A program made the position numbers and the translations under genes. From Propionibacteriales bacterium (GTDB lineage Bacteria > Actinomycetota > Actinomycetes > Propionibacteriales > Propionibacteriaceae): a stretch of 10,106 nt of DNA. A model generated the notes under the pieces. The model made no database searches. It was given only the letters and a program-made list of their open reading frames with translations, and was not told where the DNA came from. Below, piece after piece: positions 170 through 10,106 of this stretch. Position 1 is the first letter of the stretch, and the number at the start of each line of letters is the position of its first letter. The DNA is taken from NCBI GenBank assembly GCA_030453285.1, contig JAKDKP010000033.1, positions 1 to 10,106 on the forward strand. Direction: 5' to 3'.

Positions 170-1483
170 GTGGATGATCATCGCCGAGTGAGCCCCTGGG
201 CCAGGTCTGTACCCACCACTGGTGCCGTGGCGCAACTGGTCGCCGACCACTACGCACTGGCGCCCGCGCAGGCGACGCTGGTGCGAACGTTCGTCAATGA
301 CGTCTATCGGATCGACACCGAGCAGGGACCCTATGCGCTGAAGCTCTACGGCCATGGACGCTGGAGTGCCGACGAGGTGCGCTGGGAGCAGTCGCTGGCG
401 CATGAGCTGGACGCGGCCGGCGTCCCGGTGGCGGGCGACGTCGCCCTGTGCGGTGGCGATTCGGTCGGAATCCTGACAGCACCAGAAGGTGAACGTCCCT
501 TCGCCCTGACGACATGGGTGCCCGGTGAGAAGCCCCAACCGCCGTGGAGCGATGTCCTGTACGCAGCAGTCGGTGCAGCCCTGGCGAGGTTTCATGCCGC
601 AGTGGATGCGTTCGATTGCGAACATCCGCGCCCGCCCGTACGCAAGGGTGACGAACCGGCCCGCGTGGTCGCGGTCCTCGACCAGAGCGATCCTCGTCGC
701 GACCTGGTGCAGCACAGTGCCGATGCGGCGAACAGTGCCCTTGATCAACTGGCCGCTCGCGGCCTGCGGTGGGGCGTCACCCATGGCGACGCGTCGTTGG
801 ACAATCTCCATGTCGATGAGCGTGGGGTCGTGCACTTCTACGATCTCGACTTGGCCGGACCCGGATGGCAGATGTCCGACCTGACCGGGGCAATGTCCAC
901 CGAGTTCGCCGCACCCTTCCTGGCTGCCTACGTCGCCGAACGGCCGTTGTCCGACGTCGAGTTGGCGGCGTTGCCCTGGTTGCGCATCCTGGGCCACATC
1001 GACAATCTCGCGTTCCATCTCATCGACAAGCCGGCCGCGATGGGCTCAGCCACCCTGGCCGAAGGCTGGGTCGATCGCGGGTTCGCCGGGCTGGCCGACG
1101 CCGCCGGTCAAGCTGGTCTCGACGTTGACGACCTCGCCGTCGGCCACGGTCCGGACGACGAGGAGGCGCAGCAGGTGGGACACGAGGAGACGCTGTTGCC
1201 GTCTGCCTCGGTATTCGACTACCGGCGGGCGTCGAGGCAACGGGCCGAGGGACGTTTCGGATCCACGGCACACGCCGGCGATGGTGAGCACGCTGCTCGG
1301 ATGGGTGACGATCGGGCGAAGGAGTTCGAACAGCGGCTCCTGGCGTTGACCACCGACTACTTCTCCCCCGGCGCTGCCGACCCATGCATGCCAACCAAGT
1401 ACGGCTTCCGGTGGATGCTGACCCCGGTCGACCTCGCGCCGGCAGATGATCCTCGAGTCCAATGCGATGACCTGACGGAGTAG
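170..1483 (+). CDS. APH-fold phosphotransferase (aminoglycoside/homoserine kinase-like) with long C-terminal tail
   Basis: Predicted 437 aa from GTG 170. The kinase fold is clear: N-lobe strand pair FVNDVYRI...YALKLY with ATP-binding Lys58, catalytic loop THGDASLDN (His205, Asp207, Asn212) and the metal-binding DLD motif at 225-227, followed by helical C-lobe segments ending near residue 313. Members phosphorylate small hydroxyl compounds (aminoglycosides, macrolides, homoserine, choline) with ATP in the cytoplasm; the substrate here cannot be inferred. The frame is open back to position 2, but that stretch overlaps the opposite-strand AAC(3) start and is low-complexity, so it is not taken as coding. 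GTG 188 (no ribosome binding site seen) and GTG 227 are alternative starts. Odd: about 120 residues follow the kinase domain, with weaker third-position GC and no recognisable fold. The gene converges on the MFS gene, with 31 bases between their ends. Confidence 0.85.
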   Translation: MDDHRRVSPWARSVPTTGAVAQLVADHYALAPAQATLVRTFVNDVYRIDTEQGPYALKLYGHGRWSADEVRWEQSLAHELDAAGVPVAGDVALCGGDSVGILTAPEGERPFALTTWVPGEKPQPPWSDVLYAAVGAALARFHAAVDAFDCEHPRPPVRKGDEPARVVAVLDQSDPRRDLVQHSADAANSALDQLAARGLRWGVTHGDASLDNLHVDERGVVHFYDLDLAGPGWQMSDLTGAMSTEFAAPFLAAYVAERPLSDVELAALPWLRILGHIDNLAFHLIDKPAAMGSATLAEGWVDRGFAGLADAAGQAGLDVDDLAVGHGPDDEEAQQVGHEETLLPSASVFDYRRASRQRAEGRFGSTAHAGDGEHAARMGDDRAKEFEQRLLALTTDYFSPGAADPCMPTKYGFRWMLTPVDLAPADDPRVQCDDLTE

Positions 1484-1494
1484 TTGGTCCGTCT

Positions 1495-1521
1495 CATGAT
1501 CAACTGCAACATGATCAACTG
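1495..1521. repeat. 12-bp tandem direct repeat CATGATCAACTG
   Basis: CATGATCAACTG occurs at 1495-1506 and again at 1510-1521, separated by CAA, giving a 15-base period. Each copy contains the palindrome TGATCA. The repeat sits between the convergent ends of the phosphotransferase and MFS genes, and the second copy covers the MFS stop codon (1517-1515). Confidence 0.7.
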
Positions 1522-2738
1522 TGCTGCCTCAGGGAATCCTGGTCGGCAGTAGTGCGGTGTCGCCGATCGGTGAGGATGATGGCAGCAACGCCGACGAGTG
1601 CCATGGTGATGAACCCCAGTGAGGACGCTGGCGCGAGAAGGTAGTCACTCTGATTGGCCGAGATCACCATTCCGGCGACGGCGGGGCCGATGGCATTGCC
1701 AAGATTCAGCATGGAGATGTTCATCCCCGACGCAAGGGTTGGTGCATCTCCGGCGAGGGCGAAGACGCGACCATTGAGTGCGGCGGAGATGGAGAAGGCC
1801 GAGACGCCGAACCCGAACACGACCGCGCCGATCACAAGCACCGGCTGACGGATGAGCACCATCAACAGGATCAGGGTCAGCGATGTCGCGACCAGACTCA
1901 AGGTCACGTTTCGTAGCAGACCCCGGTGAGCCACGGCGCCGCCCAGGGCAACACCGATGAGCGTGCCGAGACCGAACACGGCAAGAAGTCCACCGGTGGC
2001 CGACGGGCTGACTCCGCCAACGATCGTGGTGAGCGGCTGCAGAAAGGTGAACGTGGCGAACATGCCTGCCTGGAACATGATCACGATGGCAAAGGTGATC
2101 AGCATGGTCGGCCGCACCAGCACCCGTACCTCGGCAACCAGTTGCTGACGTAGTCCCGTCGCCGTCGACGGCGCAGGATCGATTCTGGTCCAGACAAGGA
2201 CGGCACATGCCGCTGCCGCCAGGACCGCCACCAACCAGAATGCGGCCCGCCATCCGAGCGCAGTGCCCACCCATGCTGCTACCGGCAGACCGACGACGTT
2301 CGAAACGGTCAGACCGCCAACCATGATCGAGATCGCACGGGGTGCCATGGCCGGCGTGACCATCCTCACCCCCGTCACGGTGCCCACCGACAGGAAGGTC
2401 GCGCAGGCGACACCGGCGACCAGCCGCAACACGAGCATCACCCAAAAGACCGGGACCAGAGCCGTCACCAGGTGGGCGGCGACGAACGTCACCATTGCAC
2501 CCACCAGGGTGGCCTTGGGTCTGAGCAGGACGGTGAGGGCGGATGTCGCGGGCGCGCTGAGAACGACCGCGGCCGCGAAGGCCGTGACCATCAACGCTGT
2601 CGTTGGCTCCGATCGGCCGAGCGAGGCCGACATCGGTGCCAGGAGCCCGGCAATCATGAACTCACTCATGCCGAGGGTGAACACGCATCCCGAGAGCACG
2701 AACAGTCGGCAGGGGATCCTTCCGTTGCCTTGAGTCAT
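1515..2738 (-). CDS. MFS drug-efflux transporter (DHA1 type, chloramphenicol-efflux-like)
   Basis: 407 aa, the usual length for 12-TM major facilitator proteins. Alternating long hydrophobic segments run the whole length. The N-terminal segment LGMSEFMIAGLLAPMSASLG matches the GxSEFMxxGLLPxxAxxLG signature of TM1 in DHA1 proton antiporters such as the actinobacterial chloramphenicol exporters. Later 'GxTVSNVVGLPVAAWVGTALGWRAAFW' gives the TM5 antiporter motif C pattern. Inferred role: proton-driven export of small hydrophobic drugs across the cytoplasmic membrane; substrate unknown. The ATG at 2738 has no good ribosome binding site; a poor -10 (GATCGT) lies 7 bases upstream, so it may be leaderless. 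It is divergent from a MerR gene, the classical arrangement in which the regulator controls the pump. Confidence 0.9.
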   Translation of the reverse strand: MTQGNGRIPCRLFVLSGCVFTLGMSEFMIAGLLAPMSASLGRSEPTTALMVTAFAAAVVLSAPATSALTVLLRPKATLVGAMVTFVAAHLVTALVPVFWVMLVLRLVAGVACATFLSVGTVTGVRMVTPAMAPRAISIMVGGLTVSNVVGLPVAAWVGTALGWRAAFWLVAVLAAAACAVLVWTRIDPAPSTATGLRQQLVAEVRVLVRPTMLITFAIVIMFQAGMFATFTFLQPLTTIVGGVSPSATGGLLAVFGLGTLIGVALGGAVAHRGLLRNVTLSLVATSLTLILLMVLIRQPVLVIGAVVFGFGVSAFSISAALNGRVFALAGDAPTLASGMNISMLNLGNAIGPAVAGMVISANQSDYLLAPASSLGFITMALVGVAAIILTDRRHRTTADQDSLRQHS

Positions 2739-2778: not shown

Positions 2779-2839
2779 GTCCGTTGCACCGTCCGAGGGG
2801 TTCGTGCCGACCACGACGGCACGGTGGAAGGGATCGAGT

Positions 2840-3217
2840 ATGCAGATCGGCGAGTTCGCCGCCGCGACGGGCACAACCCCACGCATGCTGCGTCACTATG
2901 AGTCACAGGGATTGCTGACGCCTGCTGGCAGAAGCCCCAACGGATACCGCGAGTACGGCGAGAATCAGATCACGGCGGCCCGGCAGGTCAACGCACTGAT
3001 TCAGGCAGGCCTGCCCAGCAGGCTGGTCAAGGACCTGCTCGGCGCCGTCAGCGACACCGACGGCATCCATCCGCAGCACGTTGACACCGCGATGATCAAC
3101 ACCGTGGAAGGCGAATGGGAACGCATGTGCCGGTGCGTCGACTGCATGGCGCAGCGACGCGACGCGCTCCGTGACTACCTCGATCAACTCAGCTCCCCCG
3201 AGCGGACCGAGAACTGA
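2840..3217 (+). CDS. MerR-family transcriptional regulator with CxCxxC motif
   Basis: 125 aa from ATG 2840. This start is chosen over ATG 2804 because GGAAGGGAT lies 6-8 bases upstream and because MerR proteins begin right at the helix-turn-helix. Seen: MQIGEFAAATGTTPRMLRHYESQGLLTP, then NGYREYGENQ, the winged HTH of MerR proteins (residues 1-45). A second helical segment (ALIQAGLPSRLVKDLL) and a C-terminal dimerisation helix ending RRDALRDYLDQL follow. Odd: Cys97, Cys99 and Cys102 form a CRCVDC cluster in the dimerisation helix, where typical one-component drug sensors have RI..RI.EL. Cys in this area of MerR-family proteins binds metals or an Fe-S cluster, so metal, redox or electrophile sensing is a reasonable inference. 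It has no separate large effector domain. Its likely target is the divergent MFS gene. Confidence 0.9.
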   Translation: MQIGEFAAATGTTPRMLRHYESQGLLTPAGRSPNGYREYGENQITAARQVNALIQAGLPSRLVKDLLGAVSDTDGIHPQHVDTAMINTVEGEWERMCRCVDCMAQRRDALRDYLDQLSSPERTEN

Positions 3218-6968: not shown

Positions 6969-7478
6969 TCACACGTCGAACACTGACCAGCAGACGTCGT
7001 TGCGTCGCCGTTGATCATCCAGGACGAGCTCGCGGATCTGCAGAGGAAGTTGATCATGCTGCCAGTGGCACTCGACGAGAGCTGCCTCGGACGGGTCGTC
7101 AGCGGTGGCACGGACGGCCTTGATGGCGTACGCAGCGGCGCCGAGTTCGTGCTCGGCAACATGGGCGACGCAGGCGGCCTGCCCTGCAGCATAGGCGGCG
7201 TGCCGGGCGGCTCCGGTGAGCGAACGGGCAGCCCCCATCGCATGCCCGCCGGCGGCCCGCGACACCATCATGGTCACCTCGCCACGGACCCAGGCTCGGA
7301 CGTGGGCGATGGCCTCGCGGGGCCGGGTGTCGGCGCGGCTGACCCGCTCGAAGTGATCAAGGACGTGTTCGGCACAGTCCGCTGCCCAGAGGGCGAGCAG
7401 ATGGTGGTCGGCATCGGTCAGTGACCCACCGCGACGAATCGTGATGAGGCGGGGGTCACGAACCGCGGGAAGGATCAT
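6969..7478 (-). CDS. Imm-5-like putative immunity protein
   Basis: 169 aa, mostly helical and Ala/His-rich. I recognise the pattern DPRLITIRRGGSLTDADHHLLALWAADCAEHVL at the start, HARAW-like AHVRAWVRGEVTMM, GAARHAAYAAGQAACVAHVAEHELGAAAYAIKA in the middle, and the end QIRELVLDDQRRRNDVCWSVFD. This is the family named 'Imm-5 like putative immunity protein', often seen as a lone gene in actinobacteria and sometimes mislabelled as exonuclease SbcC. Family members are proposed, not proven here, to neutralise polymorphic toxins; no toxin gene is adjacent. It lies 22 bases after the lipoprotein gene. ATG 7478 has no ribosome binding site, and an 8-codon mini-ORF (7498-7475) ends in an ATGA overlap with it, suggesting coupled translation. 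Confidence 0.82.
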   Translation of the reverse strand: MILPAVRDPRLITIRRGGSLTDADHHLLALWAADCAEHVLDHFERVSRADTRPREAIAHVRAWVRGEVTMMVSRAAGGHAMGAARSLTGAARHAAYAAGQAACVAHVAEHELGAAAYAIKAVRATADDPSEAALVECHWQHDQLPLQIRELVLDDQRRRNDVCWSVFDV

Positions 7479-9831: not shown

Positions 9832-9856
9832 TGGCAGGTGCTGAACACCCCTGCCA
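9832..9856 (+). terminator. Strong stem-loop downstream of the histidine phosphatase operon
   Basis: TGGCAGGTG (9832-9840), a 5-base loop and CACCCCTGCCA (9846-9856) form a 9-bp stem with a 2-base bulge, 55 bases after the operon's stop. There is no T-run on the plus strand. On the minus strand the stem is followed by TTTGTCATCTTT, but no minus-strand gene ends here. Most likely it ends the operon or insulates the helR promoter. Confidence 0.45.
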
Positions 9857-9878
9857 CTACCAAGATATAGCTGACCCG

Positions 9879-9897
9879 GGGCCTTGCCGCAAGGCCC
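9879..9897. promoter_or_regulatory. Rifamycin-associated element (RAE)
   Basis: GGGCCTTGC-C-GCAAGGCCC is a perfect palindrome with 9-bp arms around one central base, preceded by one more G at 9878. It closely matches the RAE, the conserved inverted repeat (GGGGCTTGCxGCAAGGCCCC type) found upstream of rifamycin-inducible genes in actinomycetes: rifamycin phosphotransferase, monooxygenase and helR. It lies 93 bases upstream of the helR ATG. Nearby promoter parts are TATAGC (9866-9871) just before it, and TTGCCG (inside it, 9884-9889) with CACAAT (9909-9914). The active promoter cannot be told from sequence. Confidence 0.85.
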
Positions 9898-9935
9898 AGG
9901 TGGTCCTGCACAATGGCGTGCCCAGCCACCACCTG
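9897..9935 (+). other. Leader stem CAGGTGGT/ACCACCTG after the RAE
   Basis: CAGGTGGT (9897-9904) is the exact complement of ACCACCTG (9928-9935) across 23 bases. It starts on the last base of the RAE. Its right arm lies five bases before a second, stronger stem, so RNA of this leader could fold into two stacked hairpins. Confidence 0.45.
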
Positions 9936-9939
9936 CCGA

Positions 9940-9972
9940 CCACCGGAGCCTGCTCAGCAGGCGTGCCGGTGG
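9940..9972 (+). other. Strong two-part stem-loop in the helR 5' leader
   Basis: CCACCGG (9940-9946) pairs with CCGGTGG (9966-9972) and GCCTGC (9948-9953) with GCAGGC (9957-9962) around loop TCA, with a small internal loop (A versus GTG): 13 base pairs in all. It ends 18 bases before ATG 9991. No T-run follows, so it is not a classical terminator; it could pause polymerase, block or position ribosomes, or be coding if translation starts at ATG 9913. Confidence 0.55.
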
Positions 9973-9990
9973 ACGACGACGCGAGACGAG

Positions 9991-10106
9991 ATGATTGTCG
10001 TGCCACCCAGCCCCACCACCGCTTTCGACCTCCCCGCCCACTTGGCTGCCACGGCTGACCCTGAGTTGATCACCGATGATGATCAACACTTTGCCGCCAT
10101 CGCCCG
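9991..10106 (+). CDS. helR: RNA polymerase recycling helicase-like protein HelR, 5' end only
   Basis: The first 38 codons of a gene that leaves the right edge. The product begins MIVVPPSPTTAFDLP and continues AHLAATADPELITDDDQHFAAIA. The pattern (T)xAFDLPxxLxxKxDPxLIxxDExHFAAIAxSLE is how actinobacterial HelR proteins begin. HelR is a UvrD-like ATPase that binds RNA polymerase, displaces rifamycin-stalled enzyme and gives intrinsic rifamycin tolerance. The perfect RAE upstream strongly supports this call, because RAE control of helR is established in related genera. ATG 9991 has only a poor ribosome binding site (GAG 3 bases before). An in-frame ATG at 9913 with AGGTGG 9 bases upstream would add 26 residues of unlikely sequence. 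The ATPase motifs lie outside the window. Confidence 0.83.
   Translation, partial: MIVVPPSPTTAFDLPAHLAATADPELITDDDQHFAAIA

Follow-up and report, generated by a model that had tools for sequence, protein, structure and literature searches.

HelR belongs to the class II HelD ATPases. For relatives of the protein found here it is established, according to a review, that they bind the rifamycin-stalled RNA polymerase, strip it from the DNA and help the drug to be released (PMC10719064). Pairs of helR with the rifamycin-associated element (RAE) have been reported in Streptomyces venezuelae, Mycobacteroides abscessus and Nonomuraea (PMC8655204, PMC10719064). The HelR grouping also lists Microbacterium, Nocardia, Rhodococcus and mycobacteria, and a clear RAE is not present in all of its members (PMC8655204). 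In the accounts consulted, RAE-helR is described with two sense promoters and a factor not yet known, and with no antisense promoter (PMC10719064, PMC8655204, PMC12802891). The RAE regulator and its mechanism were still to be elucidated in January 2026 (PMC12802891). A related alarm has been described in Bacillus subtilis, where helD carries no RAE (PMC10719064). There, the helD/pps promoters are convergent with 39 bp between their starts, and an antisense promoter with a 19-bp spacer, which gives an intrinsically terminated RNA of about 90 nt, holds helD down until rifampicin is present. According to the model, the sense polymerase knocks off the stalled one, which needs convergent promoters (PMC12802891).

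The window analyzed here is the entire contig C502 (10106 bp) of a fragmented MAG of 3.39 Mb (769 contigs, 82.6% complete), and the end of this contig cuts an ORF after 38 residues. The preliminary description had placed a 19-bp palindrome with 9-bp arms 93 bases before this ORF, and both position and letters proved to be exact: the element reads GGGCCTTGC-C-GCAAGGCCC, and the ATG of the ORF follows at that distance, with an in-frame GTG at 10000 as an alternative start (Table 1). The element is the sole match at up to three mismatches in the window (0.01 expected in shuffled sequences). The genome scan that had been proposed gave no other perfect copy in the incomplete genome, in which two other places match with three mismatches. 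It corresponds to the definition of RAE, being a 19-bp palindrome that matches this element upstream of a rifamycin-resistance gene, helR.

Table 1. Features of the window discussed in the text.
Feature	Position	Strand	Remarks
APH-fold gene	263-1018		
Cmx/CmrA-like MFS transporter	1515-2738	-	divergent from the MerR-family regulator
MerR-family regulator	2804-3217	+	
Imm5-like putative immunity protein	6969-7478	-	PF21805, 119 bits (cut-off 25)
Antisense hairpin, 8 pairs and one internal mismatch, weak T-rich tail	9833..9855	-	terminator-like in part of the relatives
Whole cassette	9848..9923	+	match to cassette profile R1, E 2.4e-17 for the genome
GG, predicted start of antisense transcription	9854..9855	-	
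Antisense -10-like box TATCTT	9862..9867	-	
RAE, rifamycin-associated element, 19-bp palindrome	9879..9897	.	perfect palindrome here, a form found in a minority of RAEs
Candidate sense -35 TTGCCG, in RAE	9884..9889	+	predicted from the fixed +12 offset; 19-bp spacer
Candidate antisense -35 TTGCGG, in RAE	9887..9892	-	predicted; 19-bp spacer
Sense -10-like box CACAAT	9909..9914	+	lacks T1, as in almost all relatives
helR 5' end, 38 codons	9991..10106	+	remainder on contig G000:C308 (L054:1243-3379, minus strand)

The continuation of the ORF was found on contig C308 by searching the genomes of the family, the MAG itself included, with the 38 residues. The minus strand of C308 opens with the last 63 bases of the window, with one mismatch, and then presents 711 open codons. 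The two contigs were not joined, and the C308 piece, read alone, reached 1188.2 bits with the NCBIfam model NF041254 (motor_HelR; cut-off 750) and an E value of 8.7e-95 against the solved HelD of M. smegmatis. The closest among the matches listed was 75% identical and annotated as HelR of a Propionibacteriaceae bacterium, and the best 15 places listed from the plasmid collection, also annotated as HelR, were 65-69% identical. The stretch that we take to be the primary-channel loop of M. smegmatis HelD aligns with gaps to the C308 HelR. By its sequence, therefore, the cut-off ORF is a true HelR, with 711 aa on C308, and the assignment made from the first 38 residues is corroborated. The contig break inside helR, a 63-bp overlap of C502 and C308 that differs at one base, is as strain variation in an assembly would give. 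In addition, the MAG carries two rpoB genes (on C104 and C320; L414 and L415); compared with two family members, identity is 82-84% for one of them and 73-74% for the other. Since the two share only 73% identity, DNA of a second organism is suggested, and some contigs of the MAG probably come from it.

The genes that accompany the pair in the window were also evaluated. The preliminary description had taken the AAC/APH/ANT-type genes and the MFS pump as suggesting a rifamycin response, and this part was not supported. The APH-fold gene scored 96.8 bits with Pfam APH; in NCBIfam, the homoserine and serine/threonine kinase models outscored APH(3'), and all of these remained under their cut-offs. 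The "ANT" gene reached 23.8 bits where Pfam sets its cut-off at 21, the GNAT matches in the window were generic, and the Cmx/CmrA-like pump remained below its cut-off (279 against 400). A second RAE, searched in the window at up to three mismatches, was not found, and the aminoglycoside-type genes and the pump have no RAE. The neighborhood was therefore rejected as evidence of a rifamycin response. The divergent arrangement of the MFS transporter and the MerR-family regulator is likely a self-contained efflux/regulator unit unrelated to RAE. An Imm5-like putative immunity protein is also encoded in the window.

A sample of 394 genomes from the class has the exact RAE pattern (GGGNCTTGCSGCAAGNCCC) in 157 and, as read from the result table, a reversed control pattern in 3. 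The loci fetched contained 166 sites, of which 161 were unique, and 158 of these precede one of five rifamycin-resistance families, assigned by similarity in 146 cases and by eye in 12 (10 arr, one rox and the helR of the window). The targets of these 158 oriented RAEs are helR (77), rox (44), rgt (15), rph (12) and arr (10). L096, L146 and L163 were excluded from the set; L163 proved to have an ABC transporter in the opposite orientation, and in L096 (G360, family f7) a cassette-like RAE lies before a gene that, read by eye, encodes an amidase-like secreted protein. The RAE-helR pairs of Streptomyces and mycobacteria mentioned in the preliminary description had indeed been published (PMC8655204, PMC10719064), and the pair found here is in itself ordinary, a new member of that kind. 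Its characterization as "perfect" is true for the window copy and is not typical of the element, as perfect palindromes make up 23 of the 158 oriented RAEs, and in 75 of the 158 the bases at 4 and 16 read G..A.

The conservation extends well beyond the palindrome. In an ungapped, RAE-anchored comparison of the 158 sites it runs from about -32 to +26, and RAE is the centre of a cassette of about 80 bp. The strongest columns outside RAE are T -13 (156 sites), A -12 (156), A -17 (155), A +13 (157) and T +17 (156), and therefore a motif xAnnnT is present on both sides at the same place, +12 to +17 outward. When the boxes are counted in the gene-oriented sites (n=157, the flank of L066 being too short), the antisense one is a complete TAnnnT, with T1 in 155, A2 in 155 and T6 in 154. 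The sense box is CAnAAT-like; it conserves A2 (156/157) and T6 (155/157), and presents T1 in only 2 of 157. The position of both boxes is fixed: TAnnnT was found at antisense +12 in 152 of 156 sites and in at most one at each of the other offsets between 1 and 29, and xAnnnT at sense +12 in 154 of 156, where the complete TAnnnT occurs in 2; the looser xAnnnT appears elsewhere in up to 38/156 (sense +15) and 83/156 (antisense +18). Furthermore, none of the 75 aligned cassettes, the first 75 of 87 chosen at less than 80% identity, departs from the A and T of either box. On both sides, the spacer from TTGCSG to the -10-like box is 19 bp.

A profile (R1) was built from the sequence of these 75 cassettes, the window among them, which bears on the E value given in Table 1. 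At E 0.01 or better it matches 208 of the 394 class genomes, 7 of which are matched no better than 0.004-0.009, compared with the 157 reached by the exact palindrome, and the additional loci include transporter genes outside the five usual targets. From the profile loci, 59 new cassettes were read. L250, which scores poorly (5.4), was retained. Together with L163, the 59 cassettes precede helR (25), rox (20), rgt (8), rph (2) and ABC-transporter ATPases (3), and two, L238 and L258, have no recognized gene downstream. The ABC-transporter ATPases (L163, L217 and L220), a non-usual target, belong to three genomes of one family. In 38 of the 59 cassettes the RAE falls outside the exact pattern; these degenerate elements keep CTTG and CAAG in at least 37 of 38 per position, and both the adjoining GG and CC and the boxes in 36-38, while the three central bases vary (CGG, TGG, CCA, AAA, TTT).

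A further set came from a scan of a named genome collection, which gave at least 119 stretches (121 sites, two of them lost at edges). After removal of 6 sites identical to earlier cassettes, 113 remained, and their orientation was predicted from the flanks alone. Among the matches listed, 105 of the 113 are followed, on the side that was predicted, by one of the five genes (helR 43, rox 33, rgt 12, rph 9, arr 8). Within these 105 listed sites the lowest flank score was -32.3; the antisense TAnnnT is present in 102, the sense xAnnnT in 102 and both in 101, and of the four exceptions three are apparently shifted by one base on one side and one (L348) lacks both boxes. The 8 listed sites without such a gene comprise three probable chance palindromes (L290, L316 and L321; in an archaeal MAG, a Nitrospirae MAG and Paraburkholderia) with flank scores below -50, two cases that read as truncated rox, one MFS transporter and two others, and no resistance-family gene was found on the opposite side of these 8 sites either. 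The MFS-like transporter, read by eye, lies 94 bp behind the RAE cassette of L282 (Actinoplanes aureus), and it is a possible rifamycin exporter. The three probable chance palindromes were omitted from the offset counts and the hairpin test (n=110). It should be noted that this set overlaps phylogenetically with the earlier one, since among the matches listed 67 of 110 sites are less than 85% and 37 of 110 less than 80% identical to any earlier cassette; those 37 listed sites conserve antisense T1 in 34, A2 in 35 and T6 in 36, and sense A2 in 36 and T6 in 34. In three of the 105 loci (L305, helR; L334, ABC; L370, rgt), a second resistance-family gene is located farther off on the antisense side, and the antisense promoter may serve the gene there. 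RAE cassettes were also present in MAGs labelled as non-actinobacterial (L340, Xanthomonadaceae, arr; L327, Chloroflexi, rph), which points either to misbinning of these contigs or to a cassette that was transferred whole, gene included.

Over all 326 sites (157 gene-oriented, 59 from the profile and position matrix, and the further 110), T1 is present in 319 antisense and 4 sense boxes; 169 of the 326 were oriented by the cassette itself, so the box counts in the 59 and the 110 lean toward presence. A pair of G residues lies seven positions beyond the antisense box (G at distance 24 in 316/326 sites and at 25 in 300/326), and this start-site region agrees with an antisense reading. Both boxes flank RAEs of named relatives of the Streptomyces and mycobacterial groups as well, for example before arr in two Mycolicibacterium records (L273, L306) and before rox in Streptomyces zaomyceticus (L300). 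A scan for consensus promoters and terminators between 9760 and 10106, which takes spacers of 16-18 bp only and requires 5 T, and an Rfam search of the window gave nothing. No protein family was common to more than 5 of the 158 upstream flanks (mostly 0.8-1.5 kb, a few shorter); therefore, neither a common antisense gene nor a linked regulator was found there. Taken together, the directional two-box architecture of about 80 bp is a result in which we place considerable confidence.

An inverted repeat starts directly at the GG of the predicted antisense start. In the window itself this hairpin is weak, with -13.5 kcal/mol and a z of -1.5, and its fold is matched by 18 of 200 shuffles. Across the sites, the antisense strand folded from GG reaches a mean of -16.4 kcal/mol against -13.1 for shuffles, and 56 of 156 antisense sequences beat their own shuffles by over 5 kcal/mol, compared with 7 of 158 on the sense side. 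The two arms depend on each other: with its own arm the stem score averages 6.11, and with swapped arms 4.83 (top of 200 swaps 5.07; n=210), whereas the sense-side control gave 3.54 and 3.48. The difference was maintained in the 104 sites that have a 5' arm other than the commonest one (4.93 against 4.25; top of 300 swaps 4.53). Stem scores of at least 7 were found in 89 of 210 antisense sites and in 4 of 158 mirrored sense controls. A long stem is present in 94 of 210 sites, and in 60 of 210 the 8 bases after it include 4 T or more. Among the matches listed from the further set (n=110), own arms scored 6.28 and swapped arms 4.96 (top of 300 swaps 5.28), strong stems appeared in 52 with the arm taken from distance 24 and in 0, 5, 3 and 1 with the arm from distances 10, 17, 31 and 38, and 37 combined a long stem with such a T-run. 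These tests indicate that the hairpin arms covary and that, in some of the sites, the antisense strand carries what resembles an intrinsic terminator.

What the comparison of sequences establishes is the position, symmetry, orientation and conservation of the boxes, together with the covarying hairpin. With fixed boxes on both sides and a hairpin on the antisense one, RAE looks like a shared operator/-35 region of a weak sense promoter and a stronger-looking antisense promoter. As the best explanation we propose, with somewhat better than even confidence, an RAE-controlled helR unit with two back-to-back promoters on RAE. Both promoters would take the RAE region as their -35/operator, with equidistant -10 boxes behind 19-bp spacers; the sense box would be kept weak by the lack of T1, the antisense box being a full TAnnnT. 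Transcription from the latter, at the predicted start, would give a very short RNA with, in many sites, a terminator-like hairpin from its first bases. Because both promoters share RAE, RNA polymerase at one of them would exclude polymerase from the other. Without the drug the antisense side would dominate and helR would remain low, and rifamycin would turn this in favour of the sense side. A protein that binds the GGnCTTG half-sites of the DNA as a dimer probably takes part, since GGnCTTG is conserved beyond what a -35 needs; the GGn..nCC invariant outside the -35 points to a protein that was not found among the genes examined.

The explanation that competes best is that RAE is simply an operator, bound by a transcription factor that responds to rifamycin and acts at the sense promoter, with an upstream box and hairpin that are incidental or insulating. 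We give it serious weight, at less than an even chance. The near-invariant GGnCTTG/CAAGnCC with a variable centre in the 38 degenerate RAEs is typical of a dimer-binding site, and two papers propose such a factor as a possibility (PMC10719064, PMC12802891). The persistence of the cassette in four genomes with a changed RNA polymerase, described below, also speaks for it. However, a factor acting on the sense promoter leaves unexplained why T1 is present in 155 of 157 antisense boxes and in 2 of 157 sense boxes, and why a covarying hairpin lies at the predicted antisense start. In addition, no regulator was common to the flanks and none was recognized behind the RAEs, where all but a few genes were assigned.

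Within the two-promoter explanation, the sensor could be RNA polymerase itself. A strong antisense promoter, which yields a terminating hairpin RNA of about 30-40 nt, would silence the crippled sense promoter, and rifamycin bound to RNA polymerase would tip the balance. We regard this version as rather doubtful. A stalled antisense polymerase would still cover RAE, and therefore the collision logic of B. subtilis is not simply copied; something would have to clear that polymerase, be it the instability of the complex, HelR itself or the protein bound to GGnCTTG. The rpoB genes bear on the same question. They were sought in 40 cassette-bearing genomes and 40 loci were read, one from each genome except for two from the MAG of the window. 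There was no locus from G163, and the fragment of G213 ends too early, which leaves 39 readable loci. In four of these, L408 (G264), L410 (G226), L412 (G166) and L417 (G203), the RpoB residue that we take to be number 531 is N instead of S, and the rifamycin region is otherwise the usual one. These four genomes, each with one long rpoB match among the matches listed, keep both boxes before helR (G203) or rox (G166, G226 and G264), the rox frame of G264 appearing broken near its start. The same change at the rifamycin site of M. branderi may confer resistance (PMC13246000). If N531 does so here, it would blind a sensor made of RNA polymerase, which would speak for a separate sensor. On that condition, the presence of N531 in cassette-bearing genomes weakens the polymerase-as-sensor version and raises the transcription-factor explanation, and we consider a dedicated factor more likely. 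The four genomes are natural candidates for studying this question.

Another possibility is that both boxes belong to tandem sense promoters, the upstream box being the -10 of P1 and the downstream box the -10 of P2, whose -35 would lie in RAE, with no antisense promoter. Mycobacterial helD has been described in this way, with sense promoters P1 and P2 and RAE overlapping the -35 of P2, and in M. smegmatis P1 starts about 20 bp upstream of RAE (PMC10719064). The upstream box may therefore also, or instead, act in the sense direction, and the upstream 7-mer YARNNTA read on the sense strand likewise gives xAnnnT. Nevertheless, we judge this alternative unlikely: in the sense reading, T1 of the upstream box is found in 33 of 158 sites and in 8 of 110 (the latter among the matches listed), and the place 17 bp upstream where its -35 would lie shows no conserved one (0.02-0.51 bit from -41 to -36), while the antisense reading gives T1 in 155 of 157 and places RAE at -35.

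An RNA hairpin formed by RAE in the 5' UTR, as attenuator or pause, is very improbable and was rejected: although the arms could pair in an RNA and P1 is described as starting upstream (PMC10719064), it is sequence and not pairing that is conserved, as seen in the frequent G..A at positions 4 and 16 and in CTTG/CAAG without covariation in the 38 degenerate sites, and the consensus has no T-run after RAE. A chance palindrome has a negligible probability: exact palindromes with unrelated flanks do exist outside actinobacteria (L290, L316, L321), but the window presents the full cassette match (with the window among the 75 model sequences) before a true HelR, which refutes it.

With respect to the RAE-helR loci of S. 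venezuelae (SVEN_6029) and M. abscessus (MAB_3189c), the window contains the same kind of 19-bp element and the same HelR family in a different, Propionibacteriaceae-like lineage. The cassette extends RAE from 19 to about 80 bp and gives it a direction, and it makes the open question of RAE regulation testable by a few reporter experiments. In the open-access literature, outside which most subscription papers lie, and in its accessible parts, we found no description of an antisense promoter at RAE, and the two-sided promoter anatomy appears to be new. Divergent transcription from symmetric promoters is known in bacteria, where opposite starts lie close together as a result of the symmetry of the sequence. 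In contrast to these, the shared part here would be the 19-bp -35/operator and not the -10, and the antisense RNA would run into a hairpin at once. The B. subtilis alarm and the cassette have a helD-type target and a 19-bp antisense spacer in common; they would also share an antisense promoter opposed to a weaker sense promoter and a short antisense RNA with an intrinsic terminator, both of which are predicted for the cassette, the terminator in part of the sites. The geometry is different, since the B. subtilis promoters converge and the boxes described here point away from RAE on both sides and share it. With back-to-back promoters on a common RAE, the B. subtilis collision is therefore not the mechanism as described, and the RAE cassette looks like a divergent cousin of that convergent-promoter alarm. 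If RNA polymerase did prove to be the sensor, Actinobacteria and Bacillus would have reached the same type of alarm with opposite geometry.
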